DNA of 50,578 bases, taken from assembly GCA_016873715.1 (NCBI GenBank), contig VGWF01000014.1, positions 1 to 50,578 of the forward strand. Direction: 5' to 3'. Positions 4,274 through 50,578 of the stretch are shown here, one piece after another. How positions within the stretch are numbered: position 1 is the stretch's first letter; every line of letters starts with the position of its first letter. The translations under genes and the position numbers were made by a program. The notes below the pieces were generated by a model. That model was not told the DNA's origin and did no database searches. It was given only the letters and a program-made list of their open reading frames with translations. This DNA comes from Lentisphaerota bacterium. GTDB taxonomy: Bacteria; Verrucomicrobiota; Kiritimatiellia; PWTM01.

Positions 4274-5164
4274 TCACAACCACGGCGGACGCGGGGCGGG
4301 CCGGGTGGCGTCGAGACGGCCCGAGTCCAGCAAGGCATCGAGCGACGCGAGCAGCACCGCGCGGTCGCGCGGGAAGCGGGCCTCGACCGGCAGCACGTTC
4401 GACACGTGGTTCGCCCGGAAGACGGTTCCCTCGAGGGTGAGCGCCGCCGCGAGGTCGCGCAGTTCGCGCACCGCCTCGAACTCCGAGAGCCGGCGGAAGG
4501 CGCCCTCCTCCTCCCATCGCGCCAGCGGCGTGCCCGGAACCGGGATGACCCGCAGGGCCGAGAGAAGGCGCGGCTGCATGCGGTTGAGGGCCTCCGCCGT
4601 CGCGCGTGCATGGGCCGCACTGCCGTCCGGTCCGCCCAGACCGAGCAGGACAATCACCGACATCTTGAGCCCGGCCTCGCGGGCGAGCCGCCCCGCCTCG
4701 ACCATTCCGTCGACCGTCTCGGCCTTTCCCATCCGGCGAAGGACGGCCGGGTCGCCGCTCTCCAGCCCCATGTAGAGCGTGTCCAGCCGGCGCGCCCGGA
4801 GCGAGGCGAGTCCCTCGCGGCCGAGCGCCAGGATCGACGAACCGTTGGCGTAGCTGTTCACCCGGGCCAGCGCGGGGAAGGCGGCTGCGAGTTCGCCGAG
4901 AACGGCGGCGAGCCGGTCGAACCCCAGGCGGAGGGCATCGCCGTCCGCGAGGAAGACGCGGCGCGCGCCGGGCTGTTCGCGGGCGGCGGCGCGGATCTCC
5001 GCCGAGACGTCGGCCGCATCCCGGGGGCGGTACGGGCCGGACCGGTACATGCCGCAGAAGGCGCAGGCCGGATGCGGGCAGCCGAAGGCGACGCGGACGA
5101 TGACGCTCTCCGCCTCGGCGGGAGGCCGGAAGAGCGGCGGTGGGTCGTTGCGGAGGAGGCTCAC
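4274..5164 (-). CDS. Radical SAM protein
   Basis: 296 residues from GTG at 5164, which overlaps the sulfatase stop (GTGA). Reading further upstream would run into the sulfatase gene. The cluster motif is [13 protein letters not shown]: Cys-x4-Cys-x2-Cys, a spacing I associate with a COG1032-like Fe-S oxidoreductase group rather than the canonical Cx3Cx2C. Downstream are the SAM-binding strand regions [27 protein letters not shown] and [11 protein letters not shown] typical of the partial TIM barrel. No extra B12-binding or SPASM-type Cys-rich domain is visible. The reaction is unknown. The overlap with a sulfatase invites the idea of a sulfatase-maturing enzyme, but the sequence lacks the auxiliary Cys clusters of anSMEs, so I do not call it that. 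Confidence 0.82.
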
Positions 5165-6804
5165 CGCGGTGCCGGCTTCTGCGCGCCCTGTCCCTTTCGG
5201 GCGCCCGGGGCGGGCCCGTCGGTGAACGGCGTCCGCTCGAACGTCATGCCGTCGCCGGTCACGCGAGGGTCGCCCGTCTCGGTCAGCACCTTCATCAGGC
5301 GGTCCGCGAGATCCTTCTTCGCCGCCGCATAGGCCGGGTCGTCCGCGACATTCCGGGCCTGGTCGGGGTCCTTCCGCAGATCGTACAGCTCCTCCGCCGG
5401 GCGCTTTCCGAACGCGAAGTCGTAGTGCCATTTCCACGCCGCCTCGTTGCGAACGCCGACGAGCCACGCCTTGGTGGGGCTGGCATCCATGTCGGCAAAT
5501 GCGATCCGGGTGTTGTGCTCGAGTTCCGTGACGGACGGCGCGCCATCGGCGGTCACGGCCAGAGGATCGCCCATCGGCCAGCGGTCGGGCCTGAAGTTGC
5601 GGATGTAGAGGTGCTCCGCGGTGCGGAACGAGCGGTGCGGGTAGCCGACGAACCCCTCGCGGGCATTCTCAACGTGGCGTTCGCGGCCGGTGACGACCCA
5701 GGTACGGGCCGGGTCGACCTGGCCGGACTTGTCCGACGTCAGCACGGGCCACAGGCTGCGTCCGGTCATCACCTCCGGCGGCTTCACCCCGCCGGCCTCG
5801 AGGAACGTCGGCGCGAGATCCATGAGGTTGGCGAAGTCGTCCACGATGCGACCGCCCCTGCCCCCCGGAACCCTGGCGAGCAGGGCCACGCCCGTGCCGA
5901 AGCCGTAGAGATTGCATTTGCCGCCCGGCATGCCCGGCATGCCGTGATCGCCGCTGGCGACCACGAGGGTGTTGTCCAGTTCGCCGGCCGCCTCGATCAT
6001 CTTCAGGACGGCACCCACGCCGGCATCCCAGGCCTGGATCTCGCCGGCGTAGTCGGCGAAGTCCTCCCGGACCTCCGGAACGTCGGGCATGAACGCGGGC
6101 AGCCGTCCCTTGAAGGCGTCGGGGTCGATGCCCCACAGGGCCTTCCCGGAACCCTTCTCCCATTCGCGGTGCGTGAGGGTGGGTCCGAACCAGTAGCAGA
6201 ACGGCTGGCCCGGTTTCCGGTCGGCGAGGAACGCGGCGAAGTTCCCGCGGACCTGGTCGAGCATCCGGGTCTTCGCCGCCTCGAACGTCATGCCGTCGCG
6301 GATCATCTTCGTCGCATTCTCGGAGAAGTTGTTGTAGTCGGAGCCGGCCTTCTCGTACTCGTGGTCGCGGCCGCCGAAGGGGGCGTCGTTGGGCGTGCCC
6401 GGACTCCACACCTTGTAGGTCTGGCCGATGTGGTAGCCCGCGTCGCGGAGCAGCAGCGGGAAGGAGGGGATGGCGGGATCCCACACGGCGCCGACGAGGA
6501 TGGCGCCGCGGCCGGTGCGGTAGAAGTACTGGCCGGAGAGAAGCGAACTGCGGCAGGGTGTGCAGCTCGGGGCGGTCACGAAGGCATGGCGGAAGAGAAC
6601 CCCCTCCCGCGCGATGCGGTCGAGCGCCGGCGTCTTCACGACGTCGCTGGGCGACGGCCTCCCGTCGATACCGGCATAGCAGCCGGCGTAGCGTCCCCAG
6701 TCGTCGGCGAAGCAGAACAGGATGTTCGGGCGGCGGGCCTCCGCGGCGGCGGCGGACGACGCGATGGCCGCCAGGGCGAGCGTCAGGATGGCGATCGGCT
6801 TCAT
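5161..6804 (-). CDS. Secreted S1-family sulfatase (arylsulfatase type)
   Basis: 547 residues, starting at an ATG preceded by AAGGAGC about seven bases upstream. A Sec signal ([21 protein letters not shown]) precedes the sulfatase core [18 protein letters not shown], which supplies the first metal ligands (ADD). The formylglycine motif is [11 protein letters not shown]: the first Cys would be oxidised to formylglycine, and the usual Ser of CxPSR is Cys. [11 protein letters not shown] gives the second metal-binding segment, and [18 protein letters not shown] is the conserved C-terminal sulfatase signature. It probably removes sulfate from a sulfated polysaccharide in the periplasm. The neighbouring phosphoesterase is on the same strand 30 bp upstream; the radical SAM gene overlaps its stop. 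Confidence 0.92.
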
Positions 6805-6833: not shown

Positions 6834-8375
6834 TCAGGCGCCGTCGTCGCGGGCGGCCGGTCCGGAGGCCGGCCGAAGGGTGACGCCGCGCAGGTTGATC
6901 ACGCCGCCGCGGGGCTTGCCGTCCGGGCGGACCTCCACGACGGCCAGCCCGGCCGGCAGCCGGATGCGGCCGACCGTCACATTGGTGAACGCATGCCAGG
7001 AGCCGGTGCCCTTCATCGTGACCGTCACGCGCTCGCGGCCCGCGGCGACGAGCATCGTTCCGCCCTCGTTCTTCGGGTCCAGGGCGTACGTGAACTCGAC
7101 CTCGTACTCGCCGGCGCGGCGCGGACGGATCCGCCAGAGGAGGTAGTCGTTCGGATCGGACCAGTACCCGATGCTGGTGACCCCGTCGATGACCTCGGGC
7201 CGGAACTTCTTGCCGTAGCGCTCGGCCTTGTCCGCAGGGAGCGTCATGACGGAGAGCGCGTCGAGAACGCCCTGCCTGGCGGCCTCGCGCTGCTGCTCGA
7301 CCGCGGGATCCACCGGCGCCGGGGCGGGCGGCGCGACGGCGGCGGTGGCCTCCGCCGCGGGGGCCTCGCGGCTCCGCATCCCGTGACGGATCGCCGCCGC
7401 CCCGGCGGTCAGCAGTCCGACCCCCGCCAGGACGACGGCCGCGCGGACGGCGGGACTGCGCAGGCGGCGCGGTGAGGGGCGGACATCCGCGGCGGCGGGG
7501 CCCGCCGATCCCGCATCCGACGGCGCGGCAAGACCGGCGAGCGCACTGCGTCGGACCCGGATGCGCGGGCGCTCGGCGATCCTCTGCACCTTGACGAGGG
7601 CAACCTTGGTCGCCGTCATCGCCTCGTCCTTCGCCCTCAGGATGCCGTCGGGACCGCGGACGCGGCAGAAGAGCGGGATCTCCAGTTCGGGATACCGCCG
7701 GACCGAGGCGAGACAGGCCTCGGTGTCGAAGGCGATCTGCCGCAACTCGACCCGTCCGGCGGCGGCATCGAAGATCGCGTAGCTGGCCCGGTCCGAGCCG
7801 TCGCGAGGGTCGCCGACGGACCCGACGTTGACCAGGTAGCGGCTTCCCGCGGCCGCGACGAGATCCGCTCGGCGGTCCTCGATCACCGACCCGTCCGGTC
7901 CGAGGATGAAGGATCCCGGGACGTGGGTGTGTCCGAGGAAGATGAAGCGGGCGTCGGCGGCGCGGAAGCACGCGAGGGCGTCGTCGCTCTCCTCGACGTA
8001 GCCGTAGTCCTCCGGCGCGGGCGTCTCGGCGTGGACGAAGAGTGCGTCCTCCCCCTCCATCATCAGCGGGGTCGAGGCGAAGAGCGAAACCGAATGATCG
8101 TCGAGCTGGGCGCGGGTCCATTCGGCCGAGCGTCGCGCACCGGCGCGGAAGCGGGCGATGTCGATCCGTCCGACCATCGCGGCGTCGTGGTTTCCCAGCA
8201 CGAAGTTCGAGCAGCAGGCGCGCACGTCCCGAAGCACGCGCGCGGGATCGGGGCCGTAGCCGACCACGTCGCCGAGGCACACGACCGCGTCCACCCCGGC
8301 CGCGAGGAAGTCCTCCCGCACGGCGGTCCAGGCCTGCCAGTTGCCATGGATGTCCGAGACGATCGCGTACCGCAC
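6834..8375 (-). CDS. Membrane-anchored metallophosphoesterase with extracytoplasmic sugar-binding-like domain
   Basis: 513 residues. Residues 1-240 form a calcineurin-like/YfcE-type phosphoesterase with every metal motif: DIHGN (D8, H10), GDVVGYG (D36), GNHD (61-64), HAET and GHTH. A basic linker is followed by one transmembrane segment near residues 312-332 ([20 protein letters not shown]), a Pro/Ala-rich spacer, and a final domain from about 350 that reads [44 protein letters not shown] and [12 protein letters not shown]. That tail matches the beta-sandwich (CBM-like) repeats found at the ends of PVC sulfatases and glycosidases. The topology would be enzyme inside and sensor outside. No signal peptide. 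Function unknown; a link between sugar sensing and a cytoplasmic phosphoesterase is inference. Confidence 0.8.
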
Positions 8376-8628
8376 GACTCACCCCCGCGCGCCGGGCACC
8401 CGGCGACGCGTCGGATTGATCCTAACGGATCGAAGGCCGCTTGCCACGCATTCCTTCGCGGCCTCGGCCCCGGGAGGCGCATCGCCGGTCCGGTGCAGCG
8501 ATGACGAGGATGCTCGCACGGGTTTGCCGTTCGGCCGGCCGTTCGATGGGTCCCGGTCGCCATGCGGACTCGAGAGGCGCCCGCAGGATCAGGTGCATGA
8601 ACCGCGGATGCGCCCCGACCCGGGTACC

Positions 8629-8646
8629 GCGGCCCCGCACGGCCGC
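8629..8646 (-). terminator. Stem-loop directly after ftsZ
   Basis: GCGGCC and GGCCGC pair perfectly around a 6-nt loop, and the stem ends at the base next to the ftsZ stop codon. There is no T-run after it, so it would be a weak or factor-assisted terminator, or simply an RNA-stabilising hairpin. Confidence 0.35.
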
Positions 8647-9849
8647 TCAGGCGCCGGAGCCGACGCGCGAGAGCCGCACGCCGCGGCGCACGAAGGTGGG
8701 CACATCCAGGTCGACGCCGTCGTGAAGGGTCGGCTGCACGTCGCGGAAGCGGCCCTTGGAGATGCTGTCCAGCGTGAGTTCCGCCTGCACGGCGCGCCCC
8801 GAACGGCCGCGGCGCGCCGGCTTCGCCGCCGCCTCCTCGGCCCCGTCGGCCGGCGGCGTCTCGGCCGGCAACGCGGCGGGCTCCGGCGCCACGGCGTCCG
8901 GCACGCGCTCCTCGGCCTCGGTCAGCAGGAGGCTGACGCACAGCCGCCCCTCCATCGCGGCATCGAGCGCGGTCCCGACGTGGAGGTGGACATCCGGCCG
9001 GGCCTGGGCGGTCAGTTCGCCCATGACCTTCTGCAGTTCCGTCAGCTTGAGATCGCTTCCGCCCGAGATCCCGATCAGCAGGCCCCGGGCCGCGGGCAGG
9101 AGCGAGCCGTGGTCGAGCATCGGGGACCCGAGCAACTCCTCGATCACCGTCGCCGCGCGCTCGGGACCGCTCGCCTCGGCGGAGGCCAGCGCGAGCGTGC
9201 CGCCGGTCTGCTGGACGAGCTGGCGGAGGTCGGCGAAGTCGAGCTTAAGCAGCCCGGGCTCCGCGACGAGCTTCCAGAGCGTCCGCAACGCGCCGCCGAC
9301 CAGGTGATCGATCATCCGGAACGCGGTCTCGACCTGCGCCCCCTCATCGACCCACTCGATCACCCGCTGGTTGGGGAAGACGACGACGGCATCCGCCGAC
9401 TGCCGGAGGTGCTTGAGCCCCTCCTCCGCGCGCATGCGCCGCTTGGATCCCTCGAAGAAGAAGGGCAGCGTGGCGACCGCCAGGACGAGGGCGCCCGCAT
9501 CCCGCGCGGCCGCGCAGACCCGGGGCGCGGCGCCGGAGCCCGTACCGCCGCCCAGTCCCGCGACGACGATCGCGAGGTCGACCCCGTCGAACCGGGCCCG
9601 GATCTCCTCCTGCGCGGTCTCCGCGGCGCGCAGGCCGATCTCGGGATCGCCGCCGGTGCCGAGGCCGTGCGTCAGGGTGCCGCCGATGGCCAGTTGCCGC
9701 TCGACGCCGCACCCGGAGAGGACGACCTGCGAGGTGTGGATCGCCAGCATCTCGGGCGAATCCGTCCAGGCCGCGCGGAGGCCGGCGAGCGTGTTGCAGC
9801 CCGCGCCGCCGACGCCCGCCAGAAGAACCTGGTAGCGGTCGCCCACCAT
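8647..9849 (-). CDS. ftsZ: Cell division protein FtsZ, divergent
   Basis: 400 residues. It has the tubulin-type nucleotide pocket (GVGGAGCNTLAG near residue 12; GLGGGTGSGAAP near 100), which polymerises with GTP at the division site. It ends in a low-complexity linker and DLDVPTFVRRGVRL, the conserved C-terminal peptide that binds FtsA. Oddities: the usual NTD after the second strand is HTS here, and the catalytic T7 loop is KLDFADLR instead of NxDFADV, so the Asn is Lys while both Asp are kept. Loss of the T7 Asn is unusual because this loop completes the GTPase site of the neighbouring subunit. It lies 3 bp after ftsA, the last gene of the division block. Confidence 0.95.
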   Translation of the reverse strand: MVGDRYQVLLAGVGGAGCNTLAGLRAAWTDSPEMLAIHTSQVVLSGCGVERQLAIGGTLTHGLGTGGDPEIGLRAAETAQEEIRARFDGVDLAIVVAGLGGGTGSGAAPRVCAAARDAGALVLAVATLPFFFEGSKRRMRAEEGLKHLRQSADAVVVFPNQRVIEWVDEGAQVETAFRMIDHLVGGALRTLWKLVAEPGLLKLDFADLRQLVQQTGGTLALASAEASGPERAATVIEELLGSPMLDHGSLLPAARGLLIGISGGSDLKLTELQKVMGELTAQARPDVHLHVGTALDAAMEGRLCVSLLLTEAEERVPDAVAPEPAALPAETPPADGAEEAAAKPARRGRSGRAVQAELTLDSISKGRFRDVQPTLHDGVDLDVPTFVRRGVRLSRVGSGA

Positions 9850-9852
9850 GGC

Positions 9853-11073
9853 TCAGGCCCCCTCCTTGCGGGTGAAGATCTTTCGCAGGAGGTCCTTCAG
9901 GCTCGGCGCGGCGCCGCCGCGCTCGCGGGTCATGATCCCGTAACGCAGCATCCCCAGGGGCGCCGCGTAGGCCGGCCCGCCGGTGATCTGCGAGAGACCG
10001 CTCACCGCGCGCGGCTGGCCGATCGTGCAGGGCATGTTGAAGACCTTCTCGGCGAGTTCGACGACGCCGCTCATCTGCGCTCCGCCGCCGGTCAGCACGA
10101 CGCCGGCGCCGAGGTGGTAGAGCATGTCGTTCGCCTCGAGGTCCGCGCGGATGATCTTGAAGAGCTCGTCCATCCGCGCGTTCACGATCGCGTGGAGGTC
10201 CGCGAGCTTCACCGTCCGCCCCGGGAACGTGCCGTCGGCCGGCAGCGAGACCGTGTGGTTGCGCTGGGCGGGCACCGGCACCGCGCTTCCGTGCTGGACC
10301 TTGAGCTGCTCCGCCTGCTTCATCGGCAGGCGCAGGCCGACGACGATGTCGTTCGAAACGTGATCGCCGCCGACGCCGGTCGACGCCGCGCGGGCCATGA
10401 TCTGGTTCGCGTAGCCCAGGTAGTCCGTCGTGCCGCCGCCGAGGTCGATCACGGCCACGCCGGCCGCCTTCTGCTCGCGCGTCAGCACGGCCAGCGCCGA
10501 GCACAGGCCGCCGAAGGCCGCGTCCTGCACGTCGACCATGGCGGTGCGCGCCACGCGGATGACGTTGCGCATCACCGAGGCGCCGCCGTGGATGATCAGG
10601 GTGTCCAGCGCGAGCTGCGTCCCCTCCATGCCCTCGGGGTCCATGACGCCCGGCTGCTGGTCCACGTAGTAGTGCTGGCTGATGCTGTGGAGGATCTCCC
10701 GCTCGGGCGGCAGGTGCAGGTGGCGGGCGGCCTCGCCGACGGCGCGGATGTCGAGCCCCGTGATCTCGCGGTCCTCGTTCGTGATGTGGACGGTGCCGCG
10801 GTTCACGTCGCTGCGGATGTGCGAGCCGGAGAGCACGAGGTGCACCTGCCGGATCGTGACCTGGCCCTCCTCCTCGGCCTTCCCGATCGCCTCCTTGCAG
10901 CGCTCGAGGGCCATCGTGAAGTCGATCACCTCGCCCTTGCGGACCCCGGCCGACGGGCACTCCCCGGTGCCGATCACCATCAGCGAGCCGTCCTCGCGGT
11001 CCTCGCCGATCAGGGCGCACACCTTGCTCGTGCCGATCTCGAGGGCGACTATGGGAGGGCTGGCCATCGCCAC
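9853..11073 (-). CDS. ftsA: Cell division protein FtsA
   Basis: 406 residues. Actin-like ATPase that anchors FtsZ to the membrane. Visible features: phosphate-1 loop VALEIGTSKVCALIGE at the N-terminus, an SHUT/1C region (SGSHIRSDVNRGTVHIT), phosphate-2 VIDLGGGTTDYLGY, adenosine motif VLTGGGAQMSG, and a C-terminal amphipathic helix SLKDLLRKIFTRKEG that fits the membrane-targeting sequence. Start at ATG 11073, or two codons in at the second ATG; it begins 6 bp after the ftsQ stop. It sits in the standard order ftsQ-ftsA-ftsZ. Confidence 0.96.
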   Translation of the reverse strand: MAMASPPIVALEIGTSKVCALIGEDREDGSLMVIGTGECPSAGVRKGEVIDFTMALERCKEAIGKAEEEGQVTIRQVHLVLSGSHIRSDVNRGTVHITNEDREITGLDIRAVGEAARHLHLPPEREILHSISQHYYVDQQPGVMDPEGMEGTQLALDTLIIHGGASVMRNVIRVARTAMVDVQDAAFGGLCSALAVLTREQKAAGVAVIDLGGGTTDYLGYANQIMARAASTGVGGDHVSNDIVVGLRLPMKQAEQLKVQHGSAVPVPAQRNHTVSLPADGTFPGRTVKLADLHAIVNARMDELFKIIRADLEANDMLYHLGAGVVLTGGGAQMSGVVELAEKVFNMPCTIGQPRAVSGLSQITGGPAYAAPLGMLRYGIMTRERGGAAPSLKDLLRKIFTRKEGA

Positions 11074-11079
11074 GGCGTC

Positions 11080-11964
11080 CTAGGGCACCAGCCCGGTCAC
11101 GGCGTGGTTGACCTCGCCGAACATGTCGATGCCGATCCCGGCACCGCCCTGGCGGGAGCTGCCCCGGATCTGCCGGACGAGGTCCGCAAGCCTGGCGACG
11201 CGATTGGTCATGTCCTCCCGCGGAAGCAGCGCCTGTTCGCCTCCGGCCAGGAAGAGGCGCATCGACTCGGCATCCTCGCGCCGCACCTCGCGAATCGGCA
11301 CATGCTGGGAAAGCCGCGTCCGGTCGCACAGGTCGAGCAACTCGAGCGCGTCCTCGATCTCGGCGCCCTTCACCTGGACGCCGGGCCGGAGCCCGGGCGG
11401 TGCGTAGCCCGAGAGCATCGGCAGCGCCACGGAGGCCGAGCCCGGCCCGAGCACCCAGCCCTCGCGGTCGACCGCGAGCTGGAGCCCGGTCGACGGCATC
11501 ACGATCCGCGCCAGCGGCGTGCGTTCCACCACCCGCACGCTCATCGTGTCGGGCAGCGTCCGGTTCACCTCGACCTCCTTCACCACCGGCACCGCGCCGA
11601 GGCCCTCGCGGATGCGGCGGACGTCGACCGCGAAGAGATTGTCGCCCTGCGCGACGCCCGCGTACTGCCGGAGCAGCTCGGGCGTGAGCCGGCCGTCGGA
11701 GGAGACGTCGAGACGCCGGATCGTGAAGAGCGGGTTCGCGGAGAACAGCATGCGCGCCGCCTGCTGCGTCCCCACCGAGGCCAGCCAGCCCGCGGTGCCC
11801 AGCACCGCGAGAAGAAGGACGATCGCCCCCGCGCGGTGCATGCGCTCGGCCCGCTGCTCCGAGGCGCGCGCGCTGACGTTCAGCATGGTGGTGCGGAGGC
11901 TCCGGCGACGCCGGTTCCCCCTCCACCATCCCCGCCCGCCGCCCCACATGCCCTCGGATGCCAT
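11080..11964 (-). CDS. ftsQ: Cell division protein FtsQ/DivIB
   Basis: 294 residues, type II membrane topology: a basic cytoplasmic N-terminus, one transmembrane helix near residues 45-65 (AGAIVLLLAVLGTAGWLA), then a periplasmic POTRA domain (FTIRRLDVSSDGRLTPELL, NLFAVDVRRIREGL, VVKEVEVNRTLPDTMSVRVVER) and a beta domain. It bridges early and late division proteins. Several in-frame starts are possible; I took the longest because the basic Arg-rich segment fits the cytoplasmic tail. Followed 6 bp later by ftsA and preceded by ddl with 43 bp between. Confidence 0.92.
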   Translation of the reverse strand: MASEGMWGGGRGWWRGNRRRRSLRTTMLNVSARASEQRAERMHRAGAIVLLLAVLGTAGWLASVGTQQAARMLFSANPLFTIRRLDVSSDGRLTPELLRQYAGVAQGDNLFAVDVRRIREGLGAVPVVKEVEVNRTLPDTMSVRVVERTPLARIVMPSTGLQLAVDREGWVLGPGSASVALPMLSGYAPPGLRPGVQVKGAEIEDALELLDLCDRTRLSQHVPIREVRREDAESMRLFLAGGEQALLPREDMTNRVARLADLVRQIRGSSRQGGAGIGIDMFGEVNHAVTGLVP

Positions 11965-12007
11965 CAGGTGCTCCCCCGCGCCGTCGCGCGCCGATGGTGG
12001 GAACCTA

Positions 12008-12904
12008 TCACGCGGTGCGCGCCAGGTTCAAGATGCGATCGCAGAGCGTTGCGAAGTCGATCCCCGCCGCGGCCGCCGCCTTCGGCAGCAGGCTCGTCTC
12101 GGTGAACCCCGGAATGCTGTTCAGTTCGAGGACGAAGAGCCCGCCCTCCGGCGTCAGCCGGAAGTCCACCCGGCCGAGTCCCTCCGCGCCGAGAGCCCGG
12201 AAGACCCGCATCGCGAGAGCCTGCGCCTCCCCGGTCTCCGCGGCCTTCAGCGGCGCCGGGCAGAGGTACTCCGTCAGTCCCTTCGTGTACTTCGCCCGGT
12301 AGTCGTAGTAGCCCTCCGGCGTGCGGATCTCCACGACCGGAAGCACCTGGTCGCCGACGACTCCCACCGTCAGCTCGCGCCCCGGGATGTAGGCCTCGAC
12401 CACCGCCTCGCCGTGGTACGACAGCGCGTCGCGAACCGCGTCGAACCAGCCTTCCGCGTCGAACACCCGGTGGCACCCGACGCTCGACCCCTGCCGCGTC
12501 GGCTTCACCACGGCGGGCAGCGCGATCGGACACGCCGGGCTCGGCGCCGTCACAATTGCACCCGACGGCACCGGGATTCCCTCCGCCGCCAGCGTCTCGC
12601 GCGTCAGCCGCTTGTCGAACGCCAGCCGGCACGACGCCGGCCCCGAGCCCGTGTACGGCACGCCCTTCGACTCCAGGATCGCCTGGAGTTCGCCGTCCTC
12701 GCCGAACTCCCCGTGCAACGCGATGAAAACCGCATCGGTCTTCGGCGGAAGCTCGAACTCCCGCGACTCGACGTCCAGTTCCTCCACCGCGTAGCCCTTC
12801 GCCCGCAGGCCGCGCGCGATCGCCGCGCCCGACCGGAGCGAAACCTCACGCTCCGCCGTGAAGCCACCCTTGAGAACCGTCACCTTGCGGAACGCCACGC
12901 TCAC
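12008..12904 (-). CDS. ddl: D-alanine--D-alanine ligase
   Basis: 298 residues. Makes D-Ala-D-Ala for peptidoglycan. The N-terminal GGFTAEREVSLRSG contains the catalytic Glu/Ser pair, the ATP-grasp core shows AVVKPTRQGSSVGCHRV and AYIPGRELTVGVVG, and the C-terminus FVLELNSIPGFTETSLLPKAA carries the metal-binding Glu/Asn and the substrate loop. Length is normal for the family. It opens the ddl-ftsQ-ftsA-ftsZ string; murB/murC, which often precede it, are not here, and an accessory stretch begins 370 bp upstream of its start. Confidence 0.96.
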   Translation of the reverse strand: MSVAFRKVTVLKGGFTAEREVSLRSGAAIARGLRAKGYAVEELDVESREFELPPKTDAVFIALHGEFGEDGELQAILESKGVPYTGSGPASCRLAFDKRLTRETLAAEGIPVPSGAIVTAPSPACPIALPAVVKPTRQGSSVGCHRVFDAEGWFDAVRDALSYHGEAVVEAYIPGRELTVGVVGDQVLPVVEIRTPEGYYDYRAKYTKGLTEYLCPAPLKAAETGEAQALAMRVFRALGAEGLGRVDFRLTPEGGLFVLELNSIPGFTETSLLPKAAAAAGIDFATLCDRILNLARTA

Positions 12905-47925: not shown

Positions 47926-49383
47926 ATGACGCCCGACCGTCCGACCGCCCGAACCGCCCGCGCCGCCGCCCTCGGACTCCTTCTCCTCGCCGGATCCGCC
48001 GCCGCGGCCGGGCGCAGGCCGAACCTCGTCTGGGTCATGGCCGACGATCTCGGCTGGGGCGACCTCGGCTGCTACGGCCAGAAGGTCATCCGCACGCCGC
48101 GCCTCGACGCGATGGCGCGCGAAGGACTCCGGTTCACCCACTTCTACGCCGGCGCGACCGTCTGCGCCCCGTCGCGCAGCGTCCTGATGACCGGCCTCCA
48201 CCACGGCCACACGCGCGTCCGCGGCAACGCCGGGAAGGAGAACCCCCTCGCCCAGGCCCTCCGGCCGGGCGACGTCACCGTCGCCGGCTGTCTCCGCAAG
48301 GCCGGCTACGCAACCGCCCTCATCGGCAAGTGGGGCCTCGGCGACGTCGACACCGCCGAGTGCGGCCTGCCCGGGCGGCACGGCTTCGACGTCTTCTTCG
48401 GCTTCCTCAACCAGCACCACGCCCACAACCATTACCCCGACCACCTCTGGCGCAACGAGACCCGGGTGCCCCTGCCCAACGTCGTCACGCCGTTCGGCGA
48501 GTTCGGTGGCGGGCACACCGCCGACGGGATCCTCTTCGCCGACGACCTGATGACCGACGAGGTCCTCAAGTTCGTCTCGCGCCAGCAGGACCGCCCCTTC
48601 TTCCTCTACTGGAGCCCCGTCATTCCCCACGCCAACAACGAGCGCACGCGCGCCGTCGGCAACGGGGCCCAGCCGCCCGACTTCGGCCCCTACGCCGGCA
48701 CCGGCTGGCCCGATCCCGACAAGGGCCAGGCCGCCTTCGTCACCCGCCTCGACGGCTACGTCGGCCGCCTGCTCGACCACCTCCGCCTCCTCGGCCTGGA
48801 GACCCACACCCTCGTCTTCTTCACCAGCGACAACGGTCCGCACAACGAGAGCAACCACGACCCCTCCCGCTTCCAGCCCTCCGGCCCCTTCCGCGGCACC
48901 AAGCGCAGCCTGACCGACGGCGGCATCCGCGTCCCCGGCATCGCCTGGTGGCCCGGCACCATCGCCCCCGGCCGCGAGACCGCCCACGTCGCGTACTTCG
49001 GCGACTGGTTCGCCACCGCCGCCGAGCTCGCCGGCGCGACGCCCCCCTCCGGGCTCGACTCGATCAGCTTCGCGCCCACCCTGGCCGGGCGCGACGCCGA
49101 CCAGCGGCGCCACGAGTTCCTCTACTGGGAGTTTCACGAGCGCGGCTTCAGCCAGGCCGCTCTCTACCAGGGCCGCTGGAAGGGCCTGCGCGAGCGCGTG
49201 CCCGATGCGCCGATCGCGCTCTACGATCTCCAGACCGACGTCTTCGAGACCAACGACCTCGCCGCCGCGAAGCCCGATCTCGCCGCAACGATCGATGCCT
49301 GGCTGAAGACCGCGCGCAGCGAGAACCCCGACTGGCCCATCCTCCCGCCGCCCGCGGGCTCCGGCAAGCCCCCGAAGCCATGA
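47926..49383 (+). CDS. Secreted S1-family sulfatase
   Basis: 485 residues; GGAGAA lies upstream of the ATG. Signal peptide (ARAAALGLLLLAGSAAAAG). Core motifs: RRPNLVWVMADDLGWGDLGCYG (metal ligands), formylglycine site CAPSRSVLMTG, IGKWGLGD, VFFTSDNGPHNES and LYDLQTDVFETNDLAA. This is the arylsulfatase/N-acetylgalactosamine-6-sulfatase type arrangement. Probably desulfates an algal or host polysaccharide. Second of three sulfatases in the window. Confidence 0.93.
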   Translation: MTPDRPTARTARAAALGLLLLAGSAAAAGRRPNLVWVMADDLGWGDLGCYGQKVIRTPRLDAMAREGLRFTHFYAGATVCAPSRSVLMTGLHHGHTRVRGNAGKENPLAQALRPGDVTVAGCLRKAGYATALIGKWGLGDVDTAECGLPGRHGFDVFFGFLNQHHAHNHYPDHLWRNETRVPLPNVVTPFGEFGGGHTADGILFADDLMTDEVLKFVSRQQDRPFFLYWSPVIPHANNERTRAVGNGAQPPDFGPYAGTGWPDPDKGQAAFVTRLDGYVGRLLDHLRLLGLETHTLVFFTSDNGPHNESNHDPSRFQPSGPFRGTKRSLTDGGIRVPGIAWWPGTIAPGRETAHVAYFGDWFATAAELAGATPPSGLDSISFAPTLAGRDADQRRHEFLYWEFHERGFSQAALYQGRWKGLRERVPDAPIALYDLQTDVFETNDLAAAKPDLAATIDAWLKTARSENPDWPILPPPAGSGKPPKP

Positions 49384-49554
49384 GCCGTGGGAGGACCACC
49401 CCGGGGTTCACGGGGCGCACGGATGCGGAGGGCGGGGCTCCGACGGCCCGCCCGGGCGGAGCCCGTACCGGATCCCCGACGTATCCGTGGTGTCCGTGCA
49501 ATCCGCGGAGTCCCTTCCGCGTTTGGTGAAGGAACGTCGAACCGGAGAACCGCC

Positions 49555-50578
49555 ATGAACGCACGCGCCGCCGTCCTCGCCCTGCTCGCCGCCACCGCCG
49601 CGGCGCCCGCCGCCCGCGCGGCCGAAGCGGGCGAGAAGCCGCCGAACGTGTTGTTCCTCATGGCCGACGACCTGAACAACTTCCTCGGATGCTACGGCAC
49701 CCCGTGGATCCGGACGCCGAACCTCGACAGGCTGGCCGCGCGCGGGGTGCGCTTCGACCGCGCCTACTGCGCCTTCCCCCTCTGCGGCCCGAGCCGCAAC
49801 TCGATGCTGACGGGCCTCCATCCGAACAGCTCCGGCATCCTCGCCAACGCGCAGATCTTCCGGCAGACGATCCCCTCCCACGTCAGCCTCCCCCAGGCCT
49901 TCCGACGACAGGGCTACTTCGCCGCGCGGGTCGGCAAGCTCTACCACTACAACGTGCCCACATCGATCGGCACCGACGGCCACGACGACCCCGCCTCGTG
50001 GGAGATGGAACTCAACCCCGCGGGCTGCGACCGGCTGATGGAGGAAGGCGACATCTTCACGCTCACCCCCGGCCAGTTCGGCGGCACCCTGAGCTGGTAC
50101 GCCTCGCCCCGCGGCGACCGCCTGCACACCGACGGGAAGATCGCCGACGACGCCGCGTGGGTCCTCGAGCGCTGCGCGCGCGACCGCGACCGCCCCTTCT
50201 TCCTCGCCGTCGGTTTCTTCCGCCCCCACACGCCCTACGTCTCGCCCGCGCCCTATTTCGACCTCTACCCCCGGGCGCAGATGCCCGTGTTTCCGCCGGT
50301 CGAGGCGTTCCGCACGCCGGCGATGCCGGACGCCGCCTTCGGCAGCCACAAGAAGGACCAGGAGAAGCTGACCGACGACCTCCGGCGGCAGTGCGTCCAG
50401 GCCTACTGCGCCAGCATCAGCTTCATGGACGCCCAGGTCGGCCGCGTGCTCGACGCGCTCGACCGCCTCGGCCTCGCCGACGACACCATCGTGGTCTTCA
50501 CCAGCGACCACGGCTACCACATGGGCGAGCACGGCCTCTGGCAGAAGCTGAGTCTCTTCGAGGAAAGCTCCCGCGTGC
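49555..50578 (+). CDS. Secreted sulfatase, iduronate-2-sulfatase-like, 3' end outside the window
   Basis: At least 341 residues; no stop before the window ends. ATG with GGAGAA upstream. Signal peptide (AVLALLAATAAAPAARAAE), then KPPNVLFLMADDLNNFLGCYG, formylglycine motif CGPSRNSMLTG, ARVGKLYH, FLAVGFFRPHTPYVSP and VVFTSDHGYHMGEHGLWQKLSLFEES, which follow human iduronate-2-sulfatase and its many PVC relatives. It follows the preceding sulfatase by 171 bp on the same strand. Confidence 0.92.
   Translation, partial: MNARAAVLALLAATAAAPAARAAEAGEKPPNVLFLMADDLNNFLGCYGTPWIRTPNLDRLAARGVRFDRAYCAFPLCGPSRNSMLTGLHPNSSGILANAQIFRQTIPSHVSLPQAFRRQGYFAARVGKLYHYNVPTSIGTDGHDDPASWEMELNPAGCDRLMEEGDIFTLTPGQFGGTLSWYASPRGDRLHTDGKIADDAAWVLERCARDRDRPFFLAVGFFRPHTPYVSPAPYFDLYPRAQMPVFPPVEAFRTPAMPDAAFGSHKKDQEKLTDDLRRQCVQAYCASISFMDAQVGRVLDALDRLGLADDTIVVFTSDHGYHMGEHGLWQKLSLFEESSRV

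Follow-up and report, generated by a model that had tools for sequence, protein, structure and literature searches.

The window analysed here, a stretch of 50,578 nucleotides from a Lentisphaerota bacterium (contig VGWF01000014.1), carries a gene whose product joins a metallophosphoesterase, through one hydrophobic helix, to a domain resembling carbohydrate-binding modules. The question raised by this locus is whether such a protein reads a polysaccharide outside the cell and answers with an enzyme inside it, or whether the helix and the module serve some plainer purpose. The gene lies on the minus strand, with a GTG start codon at 8375 and the stop codon at 6834-6836 (ORF list). Its parts and nearest neighbours are the following:

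6834..8375, minus strand: whole gene, membrane-anchored metallophosphoesterase with an extracytoplasmic CBM6/35-like module, 513 aa (ORF list, Pfam, model)
7659..8375, minus strand: residues 1-239, calcineurin-like metallophosphoesterase (PF12850, structure matches to 3rqz and SapH 3qfm, ligands in 61/61)
7455..7658, minus strand: residues 240-307, cytoplasmic juxtamembrane linker, K/R-rich beside the membrane (pLDDT, K/R count)
7377..7454, minus strand: residues 308-333, single transmembrane helix (AlphaFold helix, Kyte-Doolittle peak, kept in 46/46 distinct anchored relatives)
7257..7376, minus strand: residues 334-373, Pro/Ala-rich extracytoplasmic linker with a short helix at 357-373 (AlphaFold model)
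6861..7256, minus strand: residues 374-505, CBM6/CBM35-type beta-sandwich (PDB profile matches, 2cdp structure match, fucosidase tails)
5161..6804, minus strand: sulfatase, 547 aa, downstream and co-directional (PF00884, E 2.3e-29)
8647-12904, minus strand: ddl-ftsQ-ftsA-ftsZ division/wall cluster, directly upstream (domain matches)

Enzyme, helix and outer module

The N-terminal domain belongs to the calcineurin-like metallophosphoesterase superfamily by profile, residues and fold. It matched PF12850 (Metallophos_2) with E 2.8e-19 and 70.1 bits against a cut-off of 27, and D8, H10, D36, N62, H63, H115, H149, and H151, which we take to be the metal-ligand and catalytic histidine positions of this superfamily, were identical in all 61 aligned sequences, the window's own counted, in agreement with the original prediction of an enzyme retaining all its metal ligands. 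A single-sequence AlphaFold model reached a mean pLDDT of 39.5 and was replaced by a full-length model built on a 61-row alignment (mean pLDDT 85.2), which was compared with known structures using Foldseek and VIA-align. In the latter model, block means were 88-98 across residues 1-230, and the superfamily fold was confirmed by the metallophosphoesterase of Sphaerobacter thermophilus (3rqz), which shares it across the whole N-terminal half (Z 29.9 over 228 residues, 35% identity) and was also the best PDB sequence match of the protein (E 3.6e-34). Unlike the window protein, 3rqz is a chain of 246 residues without helix or outer module; a paper on this solved structure was not found in the open-licence PMC literature.

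Among relatives with an activity given in the title of their entry, the nearest is SapH/Spr1479 (3qfm, 3qfn), a streptococcal asymmetric Ap4A hydrolase and phosphodiesterase that shares the fold of the enzyme half (3qfm, Z 24.2) and that, as a chain of 258 residues, differs from the window protein in having neither helix nor module. At about 20%, its identity is too low for the substrate to be transferred; by analogy, a cytoplasmic nucleotide is probably the substrate. Two more specific identities were considered and rejected, since the scores for YfcE phosphodiesterase (TIGR00040, 25 bits) and for the symmetrical Ap4A hydrolase ApaH (NF001204, 28.3 bits) lay below the NCBIfam cut-offs of 56.25 and 176, respectively.

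The original prediction also placed a single helix between the two halves, and this is borne out by a Kyte-Doolittle peak of 1.83 at residues 312-330 and by an AlphaFold helix at 308-333, preceded by five K/R in 15 residues and followed by two. The model gives block means of 38-75 over residues 241-310, in the cytoplasmic linker, and the linkers on both sides of the helix score low and are predicted to be flexible. Consequently, the helix does not appear buried in a soluble fold, a point further supported by the soluble relatives, 59/59 of which lack it.

On the model, the C-terminal domain is a beta-sandwich, as had been anticipated, of the CBM6/CBM35 type, with carbohydrate binding as its putative function. 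Block means were about 87-96 over most of residues 381-500, in a part of the 61-row alignment covered by only two rows (L075 and L076) besides the window's. The sandwich is shared with modules such as the agarase CBM6 2cdp (Z 18.4, rmsd 1.6 over 123 residues), the CsxA CBM35 2vzp (Z 16.6) and 2vzr, and the CBM35 structures 4qb1 and 4qb2, with Z of 16.4-18.4 among them. Because two domains fill the list of structure matches, the absence of other folds from it is uninformative. Moreover, a profile of 17 homologues matched 8zvk (E 9e-24) and many CBM6/CBM35 chains in the PDB, together with one GH29 alpha-L-fucosidase, 9rzx (E 3.1e-4). In Pfam, the window's own domain fell below the CBM_35_2 cut-off (16.8 bits vs 23), and at E up to 0.05 CBM_6 was found in 8/17 aligned homologues and CBM_35_2 in 7/17.

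Known CBM6 and CBM35 modules are appended to secreted glycosidases, whereas in the window protein a membrane helix links the module to an enzyme in the cytoplasm. Among the 12 same-class loci fetched that bear the module and are not phosphoesterases, 11 carried a GH29 alpha-L-fucosidase domain (L006-L008, L155-L159, and L161-L163); their tails are homologous to the window's module (24-31% identity where aligned) and, unlike it, are fused to the hydrolase itself. The twelfth (L160, G007:C59, 1260-1928) encodes the module alone in a 223-residue frame with no enzyme match, and probably represents a fucosidase tail whose gene has a broken frame. The C-terminal part had been likened to the CBM-like tails of PVC sulfatases and glycosidases; the likeness to glycosidases holds, whereas no sulfatase carrying the module was found among these 12 loci.

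A clade of anchored phosphoesterases with varied outer domains

The genome of origin encodes four anchored members, including that of the window, and one soluble member. Relatives were searched in 58 genomes, comprising this genome and relatives of its class, and a family match was found in 53 of them; in 26/58 the open frame holding the enzyme match was 440 residues or longer, a stop-to-stop measure that sets an upper bound on protein length. The matches listed further included at least 80 named loci (23 anchored, 53 short, and four cut by contig ends), in which the anchored ones came under the record titles Kiritimatiellae/Kiritimatiellia, Lentisphaerae, Verrucomicrobia or subgroups, the PVC group, one Planctomycetota, and uncultured bacterium. 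Thus, among the matches listed, soluble relatives (at most 262 aa) were spread over many phyla, and anchored relatives (at least 361 aa) occurred only in PVC bacteria or in 'uncultured bacterium' records. When own-genome, relative and listed loci were pooled into a set of at least 112 sequences (49 anchored, 59 short, and four cut), no complete protein with a size between 262 and 361 residues was present. When 145 genomes sampled from the phylum were searched, 21 yielded matches with E no higher than 1e-42, indicating that the family is patchy in the phylum, and 27 of the 30 matches sat in frames of at least 496 residues.

The anchored forms make up one strongly supported branch. In an unrooted tree of 108 enzyme domains, whose bootstrap had yet to settle fully, a branch with support 100/98 separated 46 anchored, two cut and one short sequence (L108) from 58 short sequences and one cut. 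A hydrophobic segment followed the enzyme in 46/46 distinct anchored relatives, with many scoring 2-3.4, and a further segment apart from the helix was seen in 1/46; beyond residue 205, such a segment was present in 0/59 short forms. None of the 46 anchored members had a hydrophobic 19-residue window within its first 45 residues, so that an export signal is absent, in line with the original prediction that the window enzyme has none. Furthermore, the K/R content per 15 residues was higher before the helix than after it in 39/49 anchored forms, equal in seven and lower in three. Cysteine made up 1.44% of residues before the helix vs 0.33% after it, with 23/46 anchored forms lacking cysteine after the helix and 0/46 lacking it before. 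From charge bias, cysteine asymmetry and the non-hydrophobic N-terminus, the enzyme is predicted to lie inside and the module outside. With a sensor-type domain outside, one helix, and an output domain inside, the predicted layout would be that of a one-component receptor.

Varied outer domains occur on one enzyme-helix frame. Pfam assignments and the tree indicate that the outer domain is exchanged within the anchored clade while the inner enzyme is kept. A CBM6/35-like outer part was present in the window protein, L016-L019, and L076; Pfam further identified F5/8 type C domains in L009 and L076, PA14 in L077, L078, and L084, and Laminin_G_3 in L077, L078, L081, and L100. The Planctomycetota member (L103:6001-7650) carries at its far C-terminus, outside the membrane by predicted topology, an HHH_3 domain, reminiscent of the way ComEA-type proteins bind DNA on the cell surface. 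Outside the enzyme, no above-cut-off Pfam match was obtained in L086, L087, L089, L010, and L011, and a Verrucomicrobia member (L080:5515-6645) ends about three residues past the helix, so that it is a tail-anchored phosphoesterase lacking any outer domain. The window protein, L009, and L076 fall into one supported six-row group of the tree with differing outer domains, suggesting that exchange is ongoing between close relatives.

In most members of a subgroup of about 490 aa, the helix begins between residues 284 and 292, directly after a conserved basic stretch, and this stretch with its near-constant spacing would suit transmission; the linkers of the window's own subgroup are longer and looser. 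In the ~490-aa proteins, the outer domain gave CBM_4_9 matches in 2/15 members (best E 0.068) and no PDB profile match below E 0.67, so that its standing as a proven CBM is unsupported by profiles and a resemblance to CBM4/9, seen by eye, is a lead.

Gene neighbourhood and genome content

The original prediction drew attention to a sulfatase next door, and the two genes are indeed 29 bases apart and possibly share an operon. A sulfatase neighbour recurred in one of four same-architecture relatives (present in L045; absent from L046, L047, and L048), and sulfatase matches in the genome number about 130, which makes adjacency weak as functional evidence; with so many in one genome, weak hits to sulfatases beside more distantly related members are also to be expected. 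In L045 (G007:C11), the sulfatase adjacent to the phosphoesterase was matched at 8817-10348, and tblastn with the window sulfatase returned two pieces (69% and 50% identity) in different frames, denoting a broken gene or an assembly error there. Two further PF00884 sulfatase matches lie at 48019-50541, near the right end of the window.

Upstream, the FtsZ of the division/wall cluster scored 258.7 bits vs an NCBIfam cut-off of 295.2, which suggests a somewhat divergent FtsZ. A conserved placement beside the division cluster was unsupported, since FtsZ, FtsA, FtsQ, and Ddl gave no match in 56 loci, many of them short and two (L073 and L074) from the same genome. Neighbours in other loci, inspected by eye, were mostly housekeeping genes (e.g., ruvA, V-type ATPase, and rnf genes) and formed no regulon.

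The genome also contains 27 PF01120 fucosidase matches, and these counts of sulfatases and fucosidases fit a degrader of sulfated, fucose-containing polysaccharides. Published Kiritimatiellales isolates are reported to degrade sulfated polysaccharides, and fucoidan is among the subjects discussed (PMC6388578).

Receptor or tether

We consider that the protein may be a one-component receptor, in which the outer module meets a polysaccharide and thereby changes the output of the cytoplasmic phosphoesterase; ligand, substrate and switching are inferred, and we place the probability of this reading at about one half. In such a single-pass protein, the phosphoesterase would sit in the cytoplasm, the helix would cross the inner membrane once, and the CBM6/35-type module would face outward. 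There it would meet a polysaccharide; since the closest kin of the module outside the family are fucosidase tails, one that contains fucose is plausible in this species. Contact with the ligand would cluster or reorient the protein and so alter the action of the inner enzyme on a cytoplasmic phospho-substrate, most plausibly, by analogy with SapH, a nucleotide (for instance Ap4A, or a cyclic one). A receptor is favoured because an unvarying enzyme paired with outer modules that can be swapped typically marks a sensor. The single branch, the clean split into two size classes, the charge and cysteine asymmetry, the intact active site, the fucosidase and sulfatase content of the genome and its four anchored paralogues also count in favour of this reading. 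As regards the transmembrane receptor shape originally proposed, architecture and topology are upheld as predictions, and the receptor idea gains from the domain-exchanging clade, while receptor action itself would follow by inference. Tentatively, the anchored proteins could form a PVC family of glycan receptors whose output is cytoplasmic nucleotide hydrolysis, one enzyme-helix frame having repeatedly received different lectin modules and each paralogue reporting a different polysaccharide, with four of them in this genome, which resembles that of a sulfated-fucan degrader.

The helix and the module could also be a mere tether holding a housekeeping phosphoesterase at the membrane with ligand-independent activity, or, in a variant, fixing the protein in the envelope via a wall or capsule polysaccharide of the cell itself. 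We regard this, both forms included, as a possible but somewhat doubtful explanation. The low-confidence linkers flanking the window helix offer no evident rigid signal path, and L080, ending just past its helix, indicates that anchoring alone can suffice; both points count against a receptor, as do the want of a confident family match for the outer domain in the ~490-aa subgroup and the below-cut-off CBM_35_2 score of the window's module, and the housekeeping neighbours, here ftsZ-ftsA-ftsQ-ddl and in other loci those named above, are also in keeping with a tether. However, the repeated exchange of lectin-type modules among close relatives (the window protein, L009, and L076) exceeds what a plain anchor would need.

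Surface adhesion, with outer domains attaching cells to particles of polysaccharide and the enzyme responding to or controlling attachment as a mechanical, not a chemical, sensor, seems improbable. Adhesins, too, often carry PA14, Laminin_G_3, and F5/8 type C domains, but most members have just one short ectodomain (about 130-190 residues), which would hardly reach beyond an outer membrane, and no surface-export signal was seen. That the helix is not a membrane span and the enzyme is soluble, its two domains being joined by an Ala-rich linker, is very improbable, since, although the segment is Ala/Gly-rich and peaks at only 1.83, such a segment occurs in all the distinct anchored relatives, many with higher scores and with charge and cysteine asymmetry, and the outer domain types of the clade normally occur outside the cytoplasm.

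The receptor reading has parallels, as the plan of a lectin outside and an enzyme inside resembles that of other bacterial receptors. Indeed, PVC FecR anti-sigma regulators and Ser/Thr kinases likewise combine a cytoplasmic output, one helix, and an exchangeable extracytoplasmic lectin domain; their outputs are a sigma-factor switch or a kinase, whereas that of the window protein would be a phosphoesterase. No paper on these regulators and kinases emerged from the open-licence PMC literature. Each part is known; the combination, the family size and the apparent restriction to PVC bacteria were not found in print, and no paper describing a phosphoesterase-helix-lectin architecture was recognised in the open-licence PMC literature. 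To our knowledge, polysaccharide sensing in PVC bacteria with more than 100 sulfatases and dozens of glycosidases is poorly understood. If the receptor reading is true, the anchored clade, with its swappable lectin domains, would offer an obvious candidate for a polysaccharide-sensing switch in these bacteria, and glycan sensing would be tied to a nucleotide signal instead of a kinase or a sigma factor.

Finally, in one relative (L057, G049:C26) two phosphoesterases of anchored size stand in tandem on one strand, at 7412-9058 and 9298-10824.
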